The notes under the pieces: generated by a model
What the model was told of the DNA's origin: nothing
Databases searched by the model: none
The model's input: the letters and a program-made list of their open reading frames with translations, nothing else
Translations under genes and position numbers: made by a program
Assembly: GCF_003730135.1 (NCBI RefSeq)
Contig: NZ_RJVO01000004.1
Span: forward strand, 1 to 64,000
DNA length: 64,000 bases
Source of the DNA: Stagnimonas aquatica
GTDB lineage: Bacteria > Pseudomonadota > Gammaproteobacteria > Nevskiales > Nevskiaceae
Direction of reading: 5' to 3'
In this document: one piece after another, positions 2,173 to 14,267 of the stretch
Layout of the letters: each line of letters begins with the position of its first letter
Numbering within the stretch: position 1 is the first letter of the stretch

Positions 2173-5100
2173 CAGAGCGCCTCGATGCGCGCCGACTGCG
2201 CCTTCAGGGCAGCGAGGTCGCGTTCCTGCTGGGCGATCAGATCACGGGTCTTCTGCTGCACCGCTTCCGGCGCCTTGCCGAAGTTGGGGTTGGCGATGCG
2301 GCCGTTGGTGAGCACCAGATCGGCCTCCAGCTTGGCGATCTGCTTGGCCAGGCGCGCCAGTTCGGCGCCCTTGTCGATCAGCCCGGCCATCGGCACCAGC
2401 AGCTTGGCCTCGCCGAGCAGCGCCGTGGAGGACTCTGGCGCGGTCTCGTCAGCCGCCAGCAGCTTCGGCGCTTCGACGCGGGCCAGGAACACCACGCTGT
2501 CGCTCAGGCGCGTCAGGCGCTCGCGGTCGGAGGCGCTGGCATTCTGGACCAGCAGCGGCAGCACCTTGCCGGGCGAGATGTCCATCTGCGCGCGGATCTG
2601 GCGCACGCCGAGGATCAAGGCCTTGAGCCATTCGATGTCGGCTTCCGCCGCTGGGTCGATCTTCTCCGGCTGCGACACCGGATAGGGTTGAACCATGATC
2701 GACCCTCCGGCCTTGCCCGCGAGCGGCGCCACCTTTTGCCAGATTTCCTCGGTGAGGAAAGGCATCAGCGGATGCAGCAGGCGCAGCCAGGCCTCCAGAA
2801 CCCGCACCAGGGTGCGGCGGGTGCCGCGCTTCTGTTCGTCGTTGCCGTTGAGCAGAGCCGGCTTGGACAGCTCCAGATACCAGTCGCAGTACTCGTTCCA
2901 GATGAACTGGTAGAGCGTCTGCGCCAGCAGGTCGAAGCGGTAGTCGGCGTAGTGCTGCGCCGCCTCGGCCTCGACGCGTTGCAGGGTGGAGATGATCCAG
3001 CGGTCGGCGGTGCTGAGCGTCGCTTCGCCGTCCAGCGAGGGGGCGTCGAGCGCGGCACCGGTCTCGGCGTCGATGGCGCCGAGATTCATCAGCACGAAGC
3101 GCGAGGCGTTCCAAATCTTGTTGCAGAAGTTGCGGTAGCCCTCGGCGCGGCCGGCGTCGAAGCGCACGTCGCGGCCATTGGTGGCGAGCGCGGCGAAGGT
3201 GAAGCGCAGCGCATCCACGCCCACCGGAGCGATGCCCTTGGGATAGTCCTTGCGGGTCTTGGCCTCGATCTTCGGCGCCGTCTCCGGCTTCATCAGGCCG
3301 GTGGTGCGCTTCTTCACCAGCGTGTCGAGGTCGATGCCATCGACCACGTCCAGCGGGTCCAGCACATTGCCCTTGGACTTCGACATCTTGTTGCCTTCGG
3401 GGTCACGCACCAGGCCGGTGATGAACACGTCCTTGAACGGCACTTCGCCGTCGTTGAAGTAACAGCCCATCATCACCATGCGGGCCACCCAGAAGAAGAT
3501 GATGTCGAAGCCGGTAACCAGCACCGCGCCCGGGTAGTACTTCCGCAGTTCCGGCGTCTGCTGCGGCCAGCCCAGGGTCGCGAACGGCCAGATGTCGGAG
3601 CTAAACCAGGTGTCGAAGACGTCGTTGTCCTGAATTAAGCCAAAGTCCCGCATTTGCTCAATTTCGCGGCGCAGCCATTCAACCGCTCCTTTCTTTTCTG
3701 GCTGAGTTAGCTCCGCGAGTTTTTTCCGGCGCCCTTCTTGAAGGGCGCCGTTCTCGTCGAAGAAGTACTGTTCTGGCAGAGCTTCGTACTGGTGATGCTT
3801 TGCGATGAACGTTTCAATAATTCCGATGCCTGAATTGTCACCGTGAATGTATTGAGTGAGTGCCTTTTCGACAGCTTGCATCTCGGCCTCGAAGGCAGCC
3901 ACTGCCGAGCGCTCGTTCCGAGAAACGTACGTGCAGTTTGTAGTGGAGTACCAAGCGGGGATGCGGTGGCCCCACCAGAGCTGGCGCGAGATGCACCAGT
4001 CCTGGATGTTGTTGAGCCAGTGGAAGTAGGTGGTCTTCCAGTTGTCCGGCACGAAGCGGATGCGGCCGGACTCGACGGCGTCGATGGCCGGCTTGGTGAT
4101 GCGTGTGTAGCCACCCGGACGACCATCGGCCAGTTGCTGGCGTGTGAGGTCCACGAACCACTGATCGGTGAGATAGGGCTCCAGCACCGCGCCGCTGCGG
4201 TCGCCGCGCGGCACCTTCAGCTTGTGGTCCTCGATCTTCTCGACCAGGCCGCGTGGGTAGAGCGGCTTGCCGTCCTCGTTCTGCGTCGCGGGCGCACAGG
4301 CGAGGCCGGTCGCGGCTTCGAGGTCGGCGACCATCTGCTTGCGGGCCGCGTAGCGGTCAAGGCCGGCGTAGGGGAAGCCTTCGGCGATCTTGGCGTCCTT
4401 GGTCAAGACATTGATCTGCGCCAATTTGTGCCGCTGACCCACCTGATAGTCGTTGAAATCATGCGCCGGCGTGATCTTCACCACCCCGGTGCCAAACTCA
4501 CGATCCACGAAGTCGTCGGCAATGATCGGAATCTCGCGGTTGGCGAGCGGCAGCAGCACGGTCTTGCCGATCAGGTGCTGATAGCGCTCGTCTTCCGGAT
4601 GCACCGCCACGGCGGTATCGCCCAGCAGCGTCTCCGGGCGGGTGGTGGCGACGATCAGGTACTGGCCGCTGCCGTCGGCGAGCGGATAGCGCAGGTGCCA
4701 GAGCTTGCCGTTTTCGTCTTCGCTGACCACTTCCAGATCGGAGATCGCGGTCTGCAACACCGGGTCCCAGTTCACCAGGCGCTTGCCGCGATAGATCAGA
4801 CCGTCTTCGTGGAGCTTCACGAAGTGCTCGATCACCGCCTCGTTGTAGGCCGGGTCCATGGTGAAGGCTTCGCGGCTCCAGTCCACCGAGGAGCCCATGC
4901 GGCGGATCTGCTGGCCGATGGTGCCGGCCGAGTACTTCTTCCACTCCCAGACCTTCTCCAGAAACTTGTCGCGGCCCAGTTCGGCGCGGCTGGGCTCGCC
5001 GGCGAGCTTGAGATTGCGCTCCACCACCATCTGGGTGGCGATGCCGGCGTGGTCGGTGCCCATCTGCCAGAGCGTGTCCTTGCCGGACATGCGGGCGTGA

Positions 5101-6237: not shown

Positions 6238-6325
6238 GCGGTCTGTAGCCGGGCGGGGCGGGGCGCGCCCCGCGAAGGCCGCGCATTTTACGGGCTCGCC
6301 GGCCGCCACCCATAATCCGCGCCCC

Positions 6326-6916
6326 ATGAACGCCGCTCCGCTCGTCCTCGACTCCCTGACCGTCGCCCGCGGCGATCGCGTCCTGTTCGAGCGCCTGGAC
6401 CTGCGCATCGCGCCCGGCGAGGTGCTGCACCTGCAAGGCCGCAACGGCGCCGGCAAGACCTCGCTGCTGGAAGTGCTGGCCGGCCTGCGCACCCCCGAGG
6501 CCGGGCGCTTCAGCGGCCCCGAGCCCGAGCAACTGCACTGGATCGGCCACAAGAACGCCCTGCATCCGGCCCTCTCGGCGGTGGAAAACCTCGCAGCCTG
6601 GTGCGGCCTGCACGGCGCCGACACGGCCGGCATCCCCGCCGCGCTGGACCGCTTGCAACTCAAGGCCGCCCGCCAGCGACCGGTGAGGACCCTCTCCACC
6701 GGCCAGAAGCGGCGCAGCGCCCTGGCGCGGCTGCTGTTGCAGCGCCGGCCCTGGTGGCTGCTGGACGAGCCCCTGGCCGGTCTCGACGTCGAAGGCGCGG
6801 CCCTGCTCGCCGGCCTTCTCGCCGAGCACTGCGCGGCCGGCGGCGGCGCGGTGGTCACTTCCCACCAGGCCTTGCCGGAAGAGCATCTGCCGGTGCGGCA
6901 CTGGAGTCTGCGATGA
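6326..6916 (+). CDS. ccmA: Cytochrome c biogenesis ABC transporter ATPase CcmA
   Basis: CcmA is the ATPase of the CcmABCD complex that releases holo-CcmE carrying haem. The 196-residue protein has the Walker [12 protein letters not shown], a shortened ABC signature LSTGQKRR typical of CcmA, Walker [13 protein letters not shown] and a switch His in VVTSHQ. It is the first gene of the maturation operon and diverges from folD. Its last bases overlap the ccmB start (ATGA), which supports a 1:1 translationally coupled unit. No other ABC family has this combination of short length and neighbours, so the call is secure. Confidence 0.95.
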
Positions 6917-7590
6917 GCCTGCCGCGCGCCCTGGGTGCCGTCGTCGGCCGCGAGCTGCGGCTGGCCGCACGCGCGCCGGCCGAGGCGGCGCAACCGCTGC
7001 TGTTCTACGCGCTGGTGGTGGCGCTGTTCCCGCTCGGAGTCGCGCCCAACGAGCCCAGCCTGCCGGTCTATGCCCCGGCCCTGGTCTGGATCGCCGCCCT
7101 GCTCGCCAGCCTGATGACCCTGGAGCGGGTGTTCCGCAACGACTACGAGGACGGCAGCCTGGAGCAACTGGCCCTGGCGCCGCTGCCGCTGCCGCTGTCG
7201 GTGCTGGCCAAGCTGGCCGCGCACTGGCTGCTGGGCGGCCTGCCGCTGGTGCTGGCGGCGCCGCTGCTGGCCGCCGGTCTGGGCCTGGACGCCGCCGCCG
7301 GCCGCGCCCTGACCCTGGCCCTGCTGCTGGGCACGCCGACCCTGGTGCTGCTCGGCGGCTTCGCGGCGGCGCTCACCGTTGGCCTGCCGCGCGCCGGCGT
7401 GCTGCTGCCGATCCTGGTGCTGCCCATGCTCAGCCCGGTGCTGATCTTCGGCGCCGGCGCCGCCCGCGCCGCTGCACAGGGGCTGGACCCGACCGCGCCG
7501 CTATACTTCCTCGCCGCGTTACTGGCCTTGAGCCTGACGCTGGTGCCCTTCGCCGCCGCTGCCGCCCTGCGCAACGCCCTGGAAGGCTGA
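6913..7590 (+). CDS. ccmB: Haem exporter permease CcmB
   Basis: CcmB is the inner-membrane permease partner of CcmA. The 225-residue protein has about six hydrophobic segments and the family motif [16 protein letters not shown] near residue 60, followed by [17 protein letters not shown] in the later membrane part. It overlaps ccmA by four bases. In an intact operon ccmC should follow directly, but here ccmC lies 5.9 kb away. The last 100 bases of ccmB are partly repeated, in decayed form, just before ccmC (13418-13510). The full-length copy here looks functional. Confidence 0.95.
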
Positions 7591-8007
7591 GCCGATTCGC
7601 TGAATCTGGTCCTTCGTCGCTTCTGCCTGTTCCGAACTCCCCTCCGTCGCCGCTGAGCTGCTGCCTACTGCGCAGTGGGGATCGAGCTGCTGTCTGTTGG
7701 TTGGCCTGGGTTGATATGCCTGTCTCTGTCCAAGACTGCTGGACGCCCGGCGAGGCAACGCTCTGCTGAGCACCTGAGCATGGCAGCCGGACACTGCTTG
7801 GTGCCGCTACCGCTAGATGCGGGCCGCCTGACGTGGGCGGACACGGATTGCCGACTGGCCCCAATTGATGGAGAGCCTGACCCCAAGTGATGTGGCGGGT
7901 CTGGCTGCAATCCGTGACGATCTAGTCACTTTTCGTGCTGCGCTGCAACAGACGAAAACCCCTAAATCCCCCTTCATTAAATCGTCTGCGCATTTGGAGC
8001 ATTTTCG
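7591..8007 (+). other. Non-coding left border of the cytochrome island, with a decayed ccmC start
   Basis: I see no convincing gene in these 417 bases. The first 24 bases after the ccmB stop (7591-7614) line up with the bases 13511-13534 that contain the real ccmC start, with the ATG changed to ATT. The similarity to the ccmB/ccmC junction therefore runs past the stop codon on this side of the island too. The remainder is mixed sequence of lower GC, ending in a leader with GGAG about 10 bases before the next gene. An inverted repeat (7949-7955 with 7982-7988) is listed separately. Confidence 0.5.
7949..7988 (+). promoter_or_regulatory. Inverted repeat upstream of the first di-heme gene
   Basis: CAGACGA at 7949-7955 is matched by its exact reverse complement TCGTCTG at 7982-7988, with 26 bases between, ending 19 bases before the start codon. 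It could be an operator, for instance for the AraC-type regulator encoded in the same island, or a leader hairpin. The role is inferred only from position and a seven-base arm can arise by chance. Confidence 0.25.
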
Positions 8008-9912
8008 ATGAGAACCCGATTGCTGCTGTCCGCTTTGGTACTGGTGCCTGTGCTTAGTTCCTGTGGCAATTCCGCCGTATCGACAGCGGAGTTGGCGCAA
8101 CCGGAGGCGGTCCCGGTTGTAAAGGTCGATTTGGATCAGGCCTGGACACCTGAGCAGATCACTCAGTGGTACGAAATCGACCAAGGCGCGCGCGTGCTGC
8201 CACTGTCGTGGTTCCTCGCGCTCGAGCAGCCGGGCTCGACGCTCGCTTTCCTTGACGATGACGTCATGGAAACCAAGTACCGCATGCCCATGTACGACTC
8301 GCAAAGCGCGGCTGTACGCCTGCCGCGCGGCTGGGCTATCAACAGCATGGACGACAGCAGTTTCACCCAAACCAAATTGCGCTGGAAGAGCGGGCAGGGC
8401 ACCACCGAGAAGTGGACGGGTTTCACCTGCGCCGCTTGCCACACTTCGCAAATCTCCTATCAGGGTACGAGCTTCGCCGTGCCGGGTGGGCAGGCGATGA
8501 TCGAGACCCAGGTTTTTCTCGACGATCTGAACAAGGCGCTTGCCGAAACCCTGAAGGACAATGCCAAGTTCGAGCGATTCGCCAAGAAGGTGCTCGGTTC
8601 GGACGACACCGCCGCAAGCCGCACCTTGCTGCGCGCGGCTGTGACCAAGCTGCGCTATGACTCGCGCAACCACCTGTATTCCGAGCAGAGTGGGACTGAC
8701 GGTATTGCCTACGGACCGGGTCGCCTCGATGCCGTCGGTCATATCTATGATCGCGTCTCGCGTGTCGTCGAAGCTGGTGACACGCACCGAAAAATTGTTT
8801 CCGATGCGCCAGTGAACTATCCGTTCATGTGGAACGTGCCGCAGCTCGATCGAGTGCAGTGGACGGCCTTCGCACCGAAGATTCAGGTTGGTGGGTATGA
8901 CTTTGGTGCGCTGGTGCGCAACATCGGCGAAGTGTCCGGCGTGTTCGCCGACATGGAGATTCAGCCGCTCGGTCTGGGCTACGTCACCAGCGCCAACGTG
9001 CCGAATCTGCTGACGATTGAACGCAACCTCGGAGGGCTGCGCCCCCCACGGTGGCCGACCGAATTGTTCGGTGCGCTGGATGCTGCGCTGGTCGCGGAAG
9101 GCGAGACGCTGTTCGCCGGTAGCTGCGCTGCTTGCCATCAGGTGCTCGACCGCACCGATCTGGTCACGCCGATCTTGACCGACCGTACGCGTCTCAATCC
9201 GTCCGCGAGCAACAACCTGCTCACTGCGGCGCTCGAACCGCTGGTCACCGATCCAGTCGCGGCTTGCAACGGCTATCAGTCCTACACCGGTTCCGGCGAG
9301 ATGATGGGTATGCCGACGCTGCCGTCGCTCACGGTTCAGGGTACGGGCCTTATGGGGCAGGAGGCTTACATGCTCGACATGACCGCTTGGCTCCAGGTCG
9401 CGCTGATTCTCGGTAGTTCCGACGAGAACCTCGCTGGTGCGGCCAAAGAGTTCCTCGAAAGCACGTTGGCCGATGCGCTCGATCTGCCGATTGGTCTCAC
9501 GCTCGAAATACTGCTGAAGGCGTTGCAGGTCAATCCGGTTATCACCCATCCGTCGGAAGACAAGGCGGCCCGCATGGCTGAGTGCCTGGCGATCGACAAC
9601 TCGCTGATCGCATACAAGGGTCGTTCACTGAACGGCGTTTGGGCGACTGCGCCTTACCTGCACAACGGTTCCGTGGCTTCGCTGTACGACATCGTGTTGC
9701 CGCCGGAACAGCGCGCCAAGACCTTCTTTGCAGGCACGCTGGAATACGATCCGGTCAACGCCGGCTACCGCACCGACGCAGCGGCGCCGAACAACACTTT
9801 TTTGTTCGACACCAGCATCCTCGGCAACCTAAACGGGGGGCACGTCTACGGCGTGGACACGATGACGGAGCGGCAGCGCCGCGCGCTCGTCGAATACATG
9901 AAGTCCCTTTGA
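8008..9912 (+). CDS. RoxA-like di-heme cytochrome c lipoprotein
   Basis: This 634-residue exported protein opens with a lipoprotein signal ending in LSSC (Cys19). It carries two c-type haem sites, CAACH at 141-145 and CAACH at 373-377. The region near the C-terminus (LNGVWATAPYLHNGSV) is characteristic of the di-haem cytochrome c peroxidase superfamily, and specifically of the RoxA/RoxB rubber-oxygenase-like branch, which cleaves poly-isoprene or related lipids with O2. Length fits RoxA (about 670) rather than the shorter classical peroxidases (about 320-350). A paralogue follows after 25 bases, so the two are probably co-transcribed. It lies inside the operon that would attach its haems. Oxygenase versus peroxidase activity cannot be told from sequence. 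Confidence 0.75.
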   Translation: MRTRLLLSALVLVPVLSSCGNSAVSTAELAQPEAVPVVKVDLDQAWTPEQITQWYEIDQGARVLPLSWFLALEQPGSTLAFLDDDVMETKYRMPMYDSQSAAVRLPRGWAINSMDDSSFTQTKLRWKSGQGTTEKWTGFTCAACHTSQISYQGTSFAVPGGQAMIETQVFLDDLNKALAETLKDNAKFERFAKKVLGSDDTAASRTLLRAAVTKLRYDSRNHLYSEQSGTDGIAYGPGRLDAVGHIYDRVSRVVEAGDTHRKIVSDAPVNYPFMWNVPQLDRVQWTAFAPKIQVGGYDFGALVRNIGEVSGVFADMEIQPLGLGYVTSANVPNLLTIERNLGGLRPPRWPTELFGALDAALVAEGETLFAGSCAACHQVLDRTDLVTPILTDRTRLNPSASNNLLTAALEPLVTDPVAACNGYQSYTGSGEMMGMPTLPSLTVQGTGLMGQEAYMLDMTAWLQVALILGSSDENLAGAAKEFLESTLADALDLPIGLTLEILLKALQVNPVITHPSEDKAARMAECLAIDNSLIAYKGRSLNGVWATAPYLHNGSVASLYDIVLPPEQRAKTFFAGTLEYDPVNAGYRTDAAAPNNTFLFDTSILGNLNGGHVYGVDTMTERQRRALVEYMKSL

Positions 9913-9937
9913 TCCCGGATCGACGGGGAGAACTTCG

Positions 9938-11863
9938 ATGAAAATGCGCAATCTGTCGCTGGGTGCTGCGACGGCTGTGTTCCCTTTGCTGTTTGCCTGC
10001 GGCGCCTCGACGGACGGGGCGCCGCTCGGAAGCAGCGTTACGCCGTCGGCGGCGGAACAGCCGGCGCTGAGCGTGCCGGTCATTCTCGATCAGGGATGGA
10101 CAGCCGAAGAACTGGCGACATGGATGAACACCTCCACCGGCTCGCGTCTGCTGCCGTGGACTTGGGCTCAGGCCTTAGAGCAGCCCAAAGGCACGGGGAT
10201 GTTCATGAATCCCGATTATCTGTATGACGTGTACAAGATGCCCTTGCGCACCTTGCCGGATGGCATGGTGCTCCCGCGTGGCTTCGCGCTCAATGCGACC
10301 GATGACACGGATTACGGCATTACCAAGCTGCGCTGGAAGGCGGGCCAGTCCACCACCGAACCTTGGCTCGGGGTGAACTGCTCGGGCTGTCACTCGGCCG
10401 ATATCCGATACAACGGCAAGGCGGTAACGGTGAACGGTGGCGCGACGCTGGCGGATACCTTCCTGTTCTTCAAGACAATGACCGAAGCACTGGAAGCCAC
10501 TCGCGATGATGCGGCTAGGTTCGAGCGCTTTGCCAAGCGAGTTCTCGGGGCTTCGGACAGCGACAGCAACCGCAGAATGCTGCGCGCATCGATGGAGGTC
10601 ATCATCGAGGAGCGCATGAACGCGTTGTTCGCGCTGGCCAAGAACGACGTTGCCGGTGGGCCGGGTCGCATCGACGCAACAGGCCTGGTGCTGAATGCGT
10701 GGCAGAACGTACTGCACTCGAAAGAGCCAACTTACAACCCGAACGACGCTCCGACCAGCTTCCCGGCACTATGGAACGTTCCGCAGATGGATCATCTTCA
10801 GTCCAGCGGCTTCGCGCCTTCACTGAACCTGCTCGACTCCAACGGCTATCGGTTCAACCCGCTGTTTTTCGCGGGCGACATCGGGGTGGTCATGGGCGAC
10901 TTCGGTGATGTCGTTTCGACGCCGTTCCCGGCCAATTTGAAGGGCTTCAAGTCCAGCATCGACTTCAAGACGCTGCTGACCTTCGGCGATCTGCTCAATC
11001 GACTGAAGTCTCCTGCGTGGCCGAGCGATGTATTCGGCGCACCGGATGCTGCCCTGGTCGCACAGGGAGAGGCTTTGTTCGATAGCAAGGGCTGTTCCGG
11101 CTGCCACATGGAACTCAGTCGCGACGATCTTGAAACGCCTGTGTTGACGACGCTCGTGCCGCTCAAGGGTGAGAACGCGATCGGCACCGATAAGTGGATG
11201 GCCTGCAACACTTACCAGTTCACGATGCAGTCCGGCGACTTGGAGGGCATGCCGATTCTGCCGGATGGCACGCCGAGTGGTGGCGGCATCATCGGTAACC
11301 GCAACAAGGTGGGTGACGTTCAGGCGACCGCAGTGCTGCTTATCATCCTCGGTCAGATCGACAAGTTCGTCAGCGGAACCTTAAACAGTTACGTCGGCGG
11401 ATTGCGGCAGACCGGCTTCCTGCCTTTGCCGGGTGAATCCTCCCTGCAATTGCTGAACCGTATAACGACGTCCGGGTTCACGATGCAGGACGAGCCTCTC
11501 CCTCCTGCGGACAAAAAAGCGCGCGGGGAAGCATGTCTGGCGAGTGATCACCGATGGTTGGCCTATCGTGCCCGTCCGCTCAACGGTGTCTGGTCTACGG
11601 CACCCTACCTGCACAGCGGTTCCGTACCGACTCTTTACGATCTGCTTTCGCCCGAGTCAGAGCGCCCCAAGATGTTCTGGACAGGCACCGAGCAGTTTGA
11701 TCCTGTCAAGGTCGGCTATCTCACGGACAAGAGTGTTCCTGGCAACTCATTCCTCATGGATACGGGCATTCAGGGCAACCTCAACACTGGTCACAACTTT
11801 CCCAAGCAAGGTCTGACCGATGTCGAGCGCAAGGCCTTGGTGGAATACCTCAAGACTCTTTAA
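9938..11863 (+). CDS. Second RoxA-like di-heme cytochrome c lipoprotein
   Basis: This 641-residue paralogue of the preceding gene shares its layout. It has a lipobox ending at Cys21 (LLFAC), haem motifs CSGCH at 148-152 and 386-390, and the same C-terminal block LNGVWSTAPYLHSGSVPTLYDLL. The opening segments also match (DQGWTAEELATW here, DQAWTPEQITQW upstream). A GGGGAG ribosome site lies 8 bases before the ATG. Sequence divergence over much of the length suggests an old duplication with specialisation rather than a recent copy. Its stop codon overlaps that of the convergent AraC gene by two to three bases. Location is predicted as periplasmic, lipid-anchored. Confidence 0.75.
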   Translation: MKMRNLSLGAATAVFPLLFACGASTDGAPLGSSVTPSAAEQPALSVPVILDQGWTAEELATWMNTSTGSRLLPWTWAQALEQPKGTGMFMNPDYLYDVYKMPLRTLPDGMVLPRGFALNATDDTDYGITKLRWKAGQSTTEPWLGVNCSGCHSADIRYNGKAVTVNGGATLADTFLFFKTMTEALEATRDDAARFERFAKRVLGASDSDSNRRMLRASMEVIIEERMNALFALAKNDVAGGPGRIDATGLVLNAWQNVLHSKEPTYNPNDAPTSFPALWNVPQMDHLQSSGFAPSLNLLDSNGYRFNPLFFAGDIGVVMGDFGDVVSTPFPANLKGFKSSIDFKTLLTFGDLLNRLKSPAWPSDVFGAPDAALVAQGEALFDSKGCSGCHMELSRDDLETPVLTTLVPLKGENAIGTDKWMACNTYQFTMQSGDLEGMPILPDGTPSGGGIIGNRNKVGDVQATAVLLIILGQIDKFVSGTLNSYVGGLRQTGFLPLPGESSLQLLNRITTSGFTMQDEPLPPADKKARGEACLASDHRWLAYRARPLNGVWSTAPYLHSGSVPTLYDLLSPESERPKMFWTGTEQFDPVKVGYLTDKSVPGNSFLMDTGIQGNLNTGHNFPKQGLTDVERKALVEYLKTL

Positions 11864-12972
11864 CGGGGCTGGGGAGGCCTCTGGTCTGCGGCCTCCCCCA
11901 GTTGCCTCTTGCGGTAGGTGCTGGGGGAGGTTCCGGTCCAGCCACGGAAGGCGCGGTTGAAGTTGTTCTGCGACGAGTAACCCAGCTGGTGTCCGATTAC
12001 TTCGATCGAGAGGCGGGGGTTGCTGAGCAGCTTGTAGCAATCGGCCTGGCGCTGCTGGTTCAGGAGCTTCTCGTAGCTGGTGCCGTGTTCCTGCAGGCGG
12101 CGTTTCAGGGTGCGGGGTGAGGTATGCAGTCGCTCGGCGATCATTTCCAGTCGCGGATGGGGTTCGTATCCAGCGCTGATGATCGCCGAAAGCACTTTGT
12201 CGATCAGGCTGCTTTCCATGTTCAGGGAGCGCAATTGGCTCTGGCACTGTGCCTCAGCCAGCCTGGCTGCGATGGGATCGACCAGATTGATGGGCCGGTC
12301 CAGAACCGCCAGGGGAAACTCGATGGCTAATCTTTCGCTATTGAATTTGATCGGTGGTAATTGGGAGACATATAGGCCTATATGCTCGGGCTCCGGAAAA
12401 TTGAAATGCAGGAGCACCGGATGGTCCACGAATAATCCAGCCCTGTTCAGGACGGACCACCAGCCAATGGTGAACATCTCTGCAATGCAGCGACGGATGA
12501 ATCCGGTGGGGATTTTTTCGCAGAAAGGGAAAATCGATTCGTGTGGATATTGTTCGGCAAAGTTAATGTAGGCGCTATTGTTTGATTCAATAAGTCTGGT
12601 TCCGATTCCAACCGTTATCAGGCTGGAATAACGAATGGCGAAATCCAGGGCGGCCCTGACGGTCGGTAAGCTCAGCAGGCCATGACCAACCGAACCGTGA
12701 ATGAGCGGACTGTTCAGCAGGCCGAACTCGATGCCGAATTCCGCGCGCTGGGTAAGCCTGAGGGCGCGGGAAACCAAGCGCAGCCACTGTATGTGGGAGA
12801 GTTTTTCGTTGGGGTCGCTCAGAATGGCGGGTTTCTGGATGATTCCCTCGGTCATTTGTTTCTGATTTATGCCGTGATTTGCCGCAATCTCGATGATCAG
12901 CAAGCCATAGGCCACGGGAAGCATGGGCTTCAGGAATTCATCGGGAACCACCATGTCAATTTTTTTGATCAT
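11860..12972 (-). CDS. AraC-family transcriptional regulator (OruR/ArgR-like N-terminus)
   Basis: The protein has an N-terminal ligand domain of the Arabinose_bd type (roughly the first 190 residues, with GSVGHGLLSLPTVRAALDFAIRYSSL). A C-terminal double helix-turn-helix follows, with RTLKRRLQEHGTSYEKLL and IGHQLGYSSQNNFNRAFRGWTGTSPSTYR. This architecture is found in regulators of catabolic and lipid-related genes. I place the start at the ATG at 12972 (MIKKIDMVVPDEF); an upstream GTG at 13056 would add 28 residues and cannot be excluded. It converges on the two di-heme genes and is the likely regulator of the island, which is inference from position. GC is lower than in neighbouring operons, a sign of acquisition. 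Confidence 0.85.
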   Translation of the reverse strand: MIKKIDMVVPDEFLKPMLPVAYGLLIIEIAANHGINQKQMTEGIIQKPAILSDPNEKLSHIQWLRLVSRALRLTQRAEFGIEFGLLNSPLIHGSVGHGLLSLPTVRAALDFAIRYSSLITVGIGTRLIESNNSAYINFAEQYPHESIFPFCEKIPTGFIRRCIAEMFTIGWWSVLNRAGLFVDHPVLLHFNFPEPEHIGLYVSQLPPIKFNSERLAIEFPLAVLDRPINLVDPIAARLAEAQCQSQLRSLNMESSLIDKVLSAIISAGYEPHPRLEMIAERLHTSPRTLKRRLQEHGTSYEKLLNQQRQADCYKLLSNPRLSIEVIGHQLGYSSQNNFNRAFRGWTGTSPSTYRKRQLGEAADQRPPQPR

Positions 12973-13417
12973 TGGTTGTTTGTCTTTCTGCGCTTGGGGG
13001 ATCAATCCTGAGGTCCGAGGTGGGCAGTTAATCGGTCGATATGAATTTTTTTGCACGTATCATGCCAGCATCTGGCAATGCAATTGTATTTTATGCTGAA
13101 ATGATCAAGAAAATGAGGCTGGTGCTGAATGAATGTAGTTTTTAGGAATTTATAAATAATTATTGTTTAAATGCGGATACACTCTGCTTTTAAGGTGGCT
13201 GAAAGTGAAATATGGAGTCTGGATCCAGGGATTATTTCAACGGTGGTCAAAATTTTGCCTCGGAGGCTTGCCTCCGACTGCCGTCCTGGGGGCGCTGGAT
13301 CTGCCTTGCTCATCTGTGCGCCCTTCGGCCTGGCGGTTATGGCGCCGGCAGCATTTCCCCTGGGGTTTCGATGCAGAGCCGTTTTTTGCTGCCCGCATCG
13401 AAATGTACGAGCCGTCG
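12973..13417. other. AT-rich intergenic region upstream of the AraC gene
   Basis: Bases from about 13061 to 13200 are strikingly AT-rich for this genome (for example TTTATAAATAATTATT near 13150) and probably hold the promoter of the minus-strand regulator gene. From about 13250 the composition returns to GC-rich. The sequence up to 13417 may be a further, heavily decayed part of the duplicated ccmB segment that is clear from 13418 onward. I see no convincing gene here. Confidence 0.5.
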
Positions 13418-13510
13418 CCGACCGCGCCGCTATACTTCCCCGATGCGTCGCTGGCCTTGAACCTGACGCAGGTCCCTTTCGCCGTCTTGCGTAATGCCCT
13501 GGAAAGCTGA
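13418..13510 (+). pseudogene. Duplicated, decayed 3' end of ccmB
   Basis: This stretch repeats the end of ccmB (7489-7590). The first 22 bases are identical, and the rest is similar with scattered substitutions and one 9-base in-frame deletion, ending in the same ...AACGCCCTGGAA-type codons and TGA. Translated, it gives PTAPLYF...LAL.LT.VPFA...LRNALE, matching the CcmB C-terminus. It has no transmembrane body and cannot function. It sits four bases before ccmC, where the real ccmB end would be in an uninterrupted operon. It therefore marks the right border of the inserted cytochrome island. Confidence 0.85.
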
Positions 13511-13514
13511 ACCG

Positions 13515-14267
13515 ATGAACTGGACCTGGTTCCACCGCCTGGGCTCGCCACCGAGCTTCTTCCGCTTCGCCGAGCGCCTTGCGCCCTGGCTGGCCGGCCT
13601 GTCGCTGTTGCTGATCGCTGCCGCCTGCTACGCCGGTCTCTATCTGGCGCCGCCCGACTATCAGCAGGGCGATGCCTTCCGCATCATCTACGTGCATGTG
13701 CCTACGGCGGCGATCTCGCTGTCGATCTACGCGCTGATGGCGGTGGCCGGCGCCATCGCGCTGATCTGGCGCATGAAGCTGGCCGAGGTGGCGGTGGTGG
13801 CCGCCGCGCCCATCGGCGCCAGCTTCACGCTGGTGGCCCTGGTCACCGGCATGCTCTGGGGCAAGCCGATGTGGGGCGCCTACTGGGTCTGGGACGCGCG
13901 GCTCACCTCGGAACTGGTGCTGCTGTTCCTCTACATCGGCGTGATCGCGCTCAACGGCGCCTTCAACGACCCGCGCGCCGCCGCCCGCGCCTGCGCCTGG
14001 CTGGCCCTGGTCGGCGTGGTCAACGTGCCCATCGTCAAGTTCTCGGTGGACTGGTGGAACTCCTTGCACCAGGGCTCCACCCTGCTGTCGGTGGATGGCA
14101 TCAAGAACCCCAAGATGTCGACGCCCATGCTCTGGCCGCTGCTCGCCAGTCTGGCCGGCTTTTACCTGCTGTTCGCCGCCGCCCTGCTGCGGCGCATGCA
14201 GAACATCCTGCTGGAGCGCGAACGCCGCGCCGGCTGGGTGCGCGAGCTGATGGAGGCCTCACGCTGA
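13515..14267 (+). CDS. ccmC: Haem transporter/chaperone CcmC
   Basis: CcmC presents haem to CcmE at the periplasmic face of the inner membrane. The 250-residue protein has six hydrophobic segments and the tryptophan-rich haem-handling motif WGAYWVWDARLTSEL near residue 120, plus the periplasmic His in YVHVPTAA and in WWNSLHQGST that are conserved in CcmC. The ATG at 13515 matches the family start; an in-frame ATG at 13494 belongs to the decayed ccmB copy. Its stop overlaps ccmD (TGATG). Transcription may now come partly from within the inserted island. Confidence 0.95.
   Translation: MNWTWFHRLGSPPSFFRFAERLAPWLAGLSLLLIAAACYAGLYLAPPDYQQGDAFRIIYVHVPTAAISLSIYALMAVAGAIALIWRMKLAEVAVVAAAPIGASFTLVALVTGMLWGKPMWGAYWVWDARLTSELVLLFLYIGVIALNGAFNDPRAAARACAWLALVGVVNVPIVKFSVDWWNSLHQGSTLLSVDGIKNPKMSTPMLWPLLASLAGFYLLFAAALLRRMQNILLERERRAGWVRELMEASR

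Follow-up and report, generated by a model that had tools for sequence, protein, structure and literature searches.

A two-cytochrome cassette between ccmB and ccmC of Stagnimonas aquatica, bordered by a duplicated gene junction

How did a pair of di-heme cytochrome genes come to lie inside the operon for cytochrome c maturation (Ccm), whose products such proteins need? The question is raised by the Stagnimonas aquatica genome (G000), in a stretch of 64,000 nucleotides (nt) of contig NZ_RJVO01000004.1 that was analyzed as a whole (hereafter, the window) and in which ccmB and ccmC are separated by three genes, cyt1, cyt2, and araC (the block). The explanation that we favor, with a probability somewhat above one-half (about 0.57), is that a horizontally acquired cassette, comprising an oleate-diol-synthase-like pair and an AraC-type regulator gene, was inserted with duplication of the ccmB/ccmC junction after the split from the relative G003, and that its products are matured by Ccm and controlled by the AraC protein. 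The features of the locus are as follows.

6913..7590, + strand: ccmB, intact (TIGR01190, 232 bits; cut-off, 156.2)
7489..7610, + strand: left junction copy, with the intact ccmB end and a decayed ccmC start (93/122 to the right copy)
7591..7612, + strand: short, putative decayed ccmC start (15/22 in register with 13511-13532)
8008..9912, + strand: cyt1, di-heme protein resembling fatty-acid peroxidases (NF040606, 502 bits; two CAACH motifs; PYLHNGSV)
9938..11863, + strand: cyt2, paralogue of cyt1 (NF040606, 473 bits; two CSGCH motifs; PYLHSGSV, one change from PYLHNGSV)
11860..13056, - strand: araC-type regulator gene, convergent with cyt2 (PF12625 and PF12833)
13264..13417, + strand: possible further decayed ccmB sequence, weak (colinear local alignment)
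13418..13530, + strand: right junction copy, with the decayed ccmB end (13418-13510) and the intact ccmC start (border alignment)
13515..14267, + strand: ccmC, intact (TIGR01191, 246 bits)

The end of ccmB is present on both sides of the 5.9-kb block, as the original prediction had claimed: 7489-7610 aligns to 13418-13530 with 93 identities over 122 positions and a single gap of 9 nt (E = 2e-23). The alignment opens with a 22-base exact match, and the gap is an in-frame deletion of 9 bases in the right copy; both details had been read correctly, as had the order on the right side, where the decayed ccmB end is followed by an intact ccmC, the only ccmC match in the genome. A repeat finder recovered the pair as two segments, 5929 and 5920 bases apart. 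When window positions 6900 to 8000 are compared with the whole genome, the right copy ranks second among the matches (E = 1.8e-19), and the match that follows it has an E value of 3.7e-6. The decayed ccmC start placed on the left side (7591-7614) fared less well. Past the ccmB stop, 15 of 22 positions equal the ccmC start, a match that only 0.011% of the 22-mers in the window equal, but the stretch is short, free local alignment of 7591-7650 with 13508-13570 did not exceed shuffled controls (69 of 300 reached the score), which counts against a ccmC remnant, and no ccmC similarity was found beyond ~7612 (53 of 300 shuffles reached the score). With an intact ccmB and a decayed ccmC start on the left and a decayed ccmB end and an intact ccmC on the right, each side therefore carries part of one junction. 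Border similarity by chance or convergence would find its best ground in the short left ccmC part, which is not significant in free alignment; the E values of the pair, locally and genome-wide, refute it for the ccmB part, and we regard it as next to impossible. The ccmB remnant may also continue upstream of 13418: at the DNA level, the extension scored higher than all 300 mononucleotide shuffles and was equaled by 12 of 216 real GC-rich windows, which is suggestive of a longer remnant, but a protein-level test that excluded the last 32 residues was negative, the score being reached by 253 of 500 shuffles against the S. aquatica ccmB and by 119 of 500 against that of G002, a Stagnimonas metagenome-assembled genome.

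Relatedness was gauged from uvrA, valS, folD, and the ccm genes because rpoB is fragmentary or missing in three relatives. By DNA identity, S. aquatica is closest to G004 (ccmC, 95%; ccmB, 94%; folD, 95%; uvrA region, 90%), with which its CcmB protein is 98% identical, and next to G003. The uninterrupted ccmBC that had been sought in related genomes is seen in G001, G003, and G004, which lack the block and have ccmB-ccmC spacings of 4 to 147 nt; these borders and these empty sites are direct observations. The conditions under which the original prediction was to fall do not refute it: the split is not common to all relatives, and the border alignment is better than chance. ccmC was found in 54 of the 61 genomes searched, and the ccmB/ccmC junction was inspected in 52 genomes besides S. 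aquatica, leaving aside G040, with a fragmented ccmC, and a second, weak match of G052. Of these 52 genomes, 48 (25/29 and 23/23 in two sets) have ccmB no more than ~205 nt from ccmC; beside the second set stands a second ccmC of G035, with no ccmB in 1.97 kb. The exceptions to close spacing are G002, G006, G014, and G027, the last having no ccmB within 1.1 kb up to the contig end.

The block is compositionally foreign in S. aquatica. The G+C fraction at third codon positions (GC3) is 0.68 to 0.76 in the block versus 0.90 to 0.94 in folD and the ccm genes; in G002, the values for the block (0.73 to 0.85) and its neighbors (0.79 to 0.88) are closer to each other. At four-fold degenerate sites, S. 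aquatica and G004 differ by 0.12 to 0.28. Over its 93 sites, the S. aquatica ccmB remnant differs at 14 positions from the ccmB of S. aquatica, at 13 from that of G004, at 23 from that of G003, and at 22 from that of G002. Four of its sites are common only to S. aquatica and G004, and within that pair, one is shared only with S. aquatica and one only with G004. In the approximately unbiased (AU) test, placement with S. aquatica was preferred (P = 0.92), the other two placements inside the S. aquatica/G004 group were kept (P = 0.19 and 0.19), and three of four older placements were rejected at 5% (P = 0.049, 0.041, and 0.039). By this measure, the remnant groups with the ccmB genes of S. aquatica and G004.

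A dispersed repeat of ~146 nt with 16-base arms has 48 matches in five genomes of the genus. Among 23 aligned copies, its arm bases vary, but 15 of the 16 arm positions retain Watson-Crick complementarity in no fewer than 19 copies. Two copies, 89% alike, lie in the ccmB/ccmC junction, one in G004 (contig 24, 29313-29458; L116), which folds better than shuffled sequences (z = -2.1), and one in G003 (contig 74, 26913-27043; L117). An 11-base match to the hairpin at ~7664 in S. aquatica is taken as chance because the nhmmer model of the repeat finds nothing in the S. aquatica junction. Since G003 and G004 share the hairpin at the same position, their common ancestor with S. aquatica was most simply without the block.

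What does the block carry? The original prediction spoke of c-type cytochromes, which was correct and can be sharpened to the di-heme-cytochrome c peroxidase kind, because cyt1 and cyt2 both pass model NF040606 far above its cut-off of 150 bits, as does a pair from Pseudomonas aeruginosa PA7 (488 and 529 bits). A pattern-based scan of GTDB contigs returned 19 loci, among which, apart from a Stagnimonas record, the best is P. aeruginosa PA7 at 43%, the sole other locus of the 19 with a tandem pair. In a tree of 22 rows (the two PA7 proteins, four from S. aquatica and G002, and 16 other loci, with the partial L105 left out), the six proteins from PA7, S. aquatica, and G002 form a clade (support, 97/95), and cyt2 groups with the PA2078-like PA7 protein (100/99). 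cyt1 joins this cyt2/PA2078-like group (91/83) and not the PA2077-like protein, so that its tie to the latter is unclear. The identity of the PA7 pair itself can be read from its cytochrome-like domains (349-370 and 367-387) and heme histidines. Those of the first protein (130 and 365) match PA2078, and those of the second (138 and 383) equal the published 130 and 375 plus a constant 8. According to PMC4496055, PA2078 and PA2077 are a 7,10-diol synthase and an oleate 10S-dioxygenase with two CXXCH motifs each and the signature PYLHNGSV; PA2078 is transcribed first and PA2077 next, and the cytochrome-like domains lie at 349-370 and 368-386. The family memberships are observed directly, and on profile and tree placement, cyt1 and cyt2 are assigned to the di-heme peroxidase subfamily that holds this oleate-diol-synthase pair, a producer of oxylipin signals. 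The cargo is therefore likely an oxylipin-type enzyme pair with an AraC-type regulator. We infer the enzyme activities and the regulation: cyt1 and cyt2, predicted to be exported lipoproteins, would receive heme c from the very Ccm system that they split and would oxygenate unsaturated fatty acids, and the AraC protein would control the cassette.

The AraC protein resembles QhpR, CypR, and GliR, yet it scores below the cut-offs of those models and far below that of GliR, described in PMC8151288 as an activator of glycerolipid genes. Its gene overlaps cyt2 tail to tail by four bases. In five genomes, namely, S. aquatica (contig 3), G003, G005, G030, and G037, distant AraC relatives (32 to 37% identity) lie no more than 3.5 kb from matches to cyt1 that are weak (E = 1.1e-8 to 1.4e-7); this would fit a role of the AraC protein as the regulator of the pair, though araC genes are numerous in those genomes.

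The same slot is filled in G002, which carries cyt1 (64%), cyt2 (82%), and araC (57%) there. Its araC (L033, 6752-7825) occupies the same place between cyt2 and ccmC as window positions 11860-13056 do and is oriented oppositely, and no conserved DNA upstream of araC was found between the two genomes in either orientation. The two blocks have one further region in common.

7785..8007, + strand: region upstream of cyt1 common to G002, the approximate left limit of alignable island DNA (local alignment)

Its alignment scores 70, versus 17.5 for dinucleotide shuffles (0 of 300 reached the score), and 7591-7850 shows no significant similarity to the G002 spacer over its first 160 bases (80 of 300 shuffles). 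Within the order, cyt2 was found at an E value of 1e-30 or better in 2 of 85 genomes, S. aquatica and G002, in both cases inside ccm, so the free copy of the island that the original prediction had envisaged in related genomes did not turn up in these 85. A pattern-based scan of viral contigs gave seven candidates, none of them a relative, and cyt1 has matches in 61 plasmid records, with 34% for the best of them.

Other cargo also occupies the slot. In G006 (L161, 4973-10016), it holds 5.0 kb of unrelated genes (Crp/FNR-type, MFS, thioesterase, and OmpW), and in G014 (L162, 8570-10019), it holds 1.4 kb with an ABC1 kinase. Both genomes represent other genera of the family, and the slot is therefore permissive in the family. 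Neither has a clear duplicated ccmB tail: with plain shuffles, z was 0.0 for G006, 2.5 for G014 (9/300), -0.6 for G033, and 1.3 for G017. The tail before ccmC in G002, assessed with dinucleotide shuffles, gave a z of 5.3 against the S. aquatica tail (0/300) and 3.8 against its own (2/300). Among the cases tested, the duplicated junction occurs only in S. aquatica and G002, and the duplication is the unusual part. Beyond the original prediction, the analysis adds what the cargo probably is, a second genome in which this slot is filled, and the broader use of the slot across the family.

How might ccmC be expressed behind such a block? The single ccmC now follows a gene on the opposite strand and therefore probably needs a promoter within ~13057-13514. 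A promoter scan of 13000-13600 gave one weak site (13036-13063; 0.4 expected). In 7500-8100, no promoter-like site was found, and there were two weak terminator-like sites (7672-7693 and 7914-7929; 0.4 expected). Two further features belong here.

6308..6916, + strand: ccmA, heme ABC exporter ATPase (NCBIfam TIGR01189, 195.6 bits; cut-off, 131.6), with a predicted start codon
13403..13510, + strand: 35-codon open frame, a possible leader peptide (predicted), closed by the former ccmB stop codon 4 nt upstream of the ccmC ATG

The retained frame of the ccmB tail may keep translation coupled to ccmC. RNA structure over 13340-13515 is no more stable than that of shuffles (z = -0.1). A 9-base perfect inverted repeat (window 13366-13403) lies just upstream of the ccmB remnant.

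By which route could the block have arrived? In the explanation that we favor, the lineage of this species, once separated from that of G003, would have acquired the cassette between ccmB and ccmC through an event that added DNA and placed part of the ccmB/ccmC junction on either side of it (insertion-duplication). Either a circle would have recombined once within the junction, or one end would have been attached through homology and the opposite end through end joining. Function would have been kept by the copies on the outside (ccmB on the left and ccmC on the right) and lost by decay in those on the inside. Such a layout, with the functional halves outermost, is the one expected after ends-in (single-crossover) integration. 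The insertion itself is well supported, whereas the crossover and a donor are what we infer. Of the single-crossover integration of a circular DNA that the original prediction proposed, the insertion, the foreign composition, and the parts of the junction on both sides stand, but no circle or free copy was found; a circle is possible, and circular integration is one of several readings that fit.

Several observations weigh against an insertion specific to this lineage. No donor molecule was found among the order genomes, viral contigs, or plasmid records, and no recombinase was detected by Pfam in the three island proteins, the shorter open reading frames of the block lying outside that scan. 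Neither S. aquatica junction copy contains the hairpin according to an nhmmer model of 23 copies, for which 30 loci had been supplied. In G002, too, the slot holds this block, and a ccmB-tail remnant of its own, shorter than that in S. aquatica, lies directly before ccmC. This implies two separate fillings of the slot, a transfer of the block, or a greater age of the block; a single older insertion common to both genomes would be the simpler account. At four-fold sites, S. aquatica and G002 differ by 0.36 to 0.58 in core genes (ccmF, 0.82) and by 0.67 to 0.93 in the block, and because the block is thus more diverged than most core genes, G002 was not a recent donor. One remnant site matches only G002 and two match only G001, placement of the remnant with G002 was not rejected by the AU test (P = 0.082), the remnant tree is built on 93 bases with low bootstrap supports, and an old duplication could seem recent if gene conversion had acted between the two copies.

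Much of this could be accommodated by one old insertion in the ancestor of S. aquatica, G002, G003, and G004, with loss of the block in G003 and G004 and rejuvenation of the S. aquatica remnant by gene conversion from the intact ccmB. The shared gene order and slot, the common DNA upstream of cyt1, the ccmB-tail remnants in both genomes, the high divergence of the two blocks, and the placement of the remnant with G002 all agree with it. Set against this are the alien GC3 of the block in S. aquatica, the rejection of the three other older placements, and the hairpin that G004, the nearest genome on both flanks, shares with G003, and we find such a history rather doubtful. Transformation with linear DNA of an island-bearing close relative, through two crossovers in the flanking ccm genes and with the duplicated junction inherited from the donor, would explain the loss of the hairpin, and since the flanks are ordinary for S. 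aquatica and G004, a donor related closely to the two would go unnoticed. It requires an unseen donor, however, when only S. aquatica and G002 of the 85 order genomes have cyt2, and it merely shifts the origin of the duplicated junction to that donor; we consider it doubtful. A long target-site duplication, in which a staggered break was closed by end joining around incoming DNA without homology, would account for the host-like junction sequence (~120 bp) that flanks the block on either side, but random breakage does not predict the same cassette in the same junction of G002, nor is a clear duplicated tail found beside the other cargo in the slot (G006 and G014), which makes this quite unlikely. 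Given the G002 block, junction homology may have guided the block into place twice, or one old insertion may later have been homogenized. In a bolder reading, which we think unlikely, the cassette would home to ccmB/ccmC without an integrase, its flanking junction copies allowing it to move out of and into genomes of the genus through homologous recombination; the slot would have been filled at least twice (S. aquatica and G002), and the ccmB tail would serve as a 35-codon leader that keeps ccmC translated.

Apart from the block, a segment inside the valine-tRNA ligase gene valS (window 3648-3851, minus strand) draws attention, with residues 498-565 skipped in the tblastn match to G004 and residues 478-568 skipped in that to G003; the valS of this lineage perhaps contains an in-frame insertion of ~68 residues.

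If the insertion after the split from G003 is correct, the locus would be a natural, roughly datable case of the entry of an operon into a genome by insertion-duplication, in which both scars are legible and for which an empty-site relative is available at about 90 to 95% DNA identity. Relatives of characterized oxylipin synthases are, moreover, found here as a pair in a further bacterial genus, accompanied by a regulator of another class and lying inside the operon whose products such proteins need. Among the papers listed for Stagnimonas, for insertion or transfer at ccmB/ccmC, and for oxylipin enzymes, none describes the locus in its title or the abstract displayed, full texts not being covered by that search.

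In Campbell-type integration, the target sequence is repeated on both sides of the added DNA. In homology-facilitated illegitimate recombination, one end is joined by homology and the other illegitimately, as described in PMC3240628. The S. aquatica locus is like these insertion-duplications in that the target is repeated on both sides of the added DNA and unlike them in being a natural case in which both inner copies have decayed. Its cargo shares with the rubber oxygenases RoxA, RoxB, and RoxC the RoxA-like domain PF21419, and cyt1 weakly matches the 4b2n chain (E = 9.7e-7), named as RoxA in PMC4496055. Identity with rubber oxygenases was rejected, the scores being far below the curated NCBIfam cut-offs: 38 to 53 bits of 1000 for RoxA, 42 to 67 of 900 for RoxB, and 58 to 67 of 900 for RoxC. 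The cargo also resembles the oleate-diol-synthase (FadCcp) operon PA2078-PA2077 of P. aeruginosa, which belongs to oxylipin-dependent quorum sensing (ODS). Both have tandem di-heme proteins of ~620 to 640 amino acids that pass NF040606, with two CXXCH motifs each and the signature PYLH.GSV, and both have a regulator gene convergent directly after the pair. PMC6377657 describes the PA2078/PA2077 products in strain PAO1 as autoinducers sensed by the LysR-type OdsR, encoded adjacent to the pair, and homologues of PA2077 and PA2078 are already named in several genera in its Discussion. In contrast to the ODS operon, the gene order here is reversed (cyt1 and then the PA2078-like cyt2), and the regulator is AraC-type, whereas OdsR is LysR-type and PA7 has a LysR-type gene convergent with its pair. 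The N termini of cyt1 and cyt2, by eye, resemble lipoprotein signals, whereas PA2078 and PA2077 are reported with type I signals (PMC4496055), and the Stagnimonas pair sits inside ccm.

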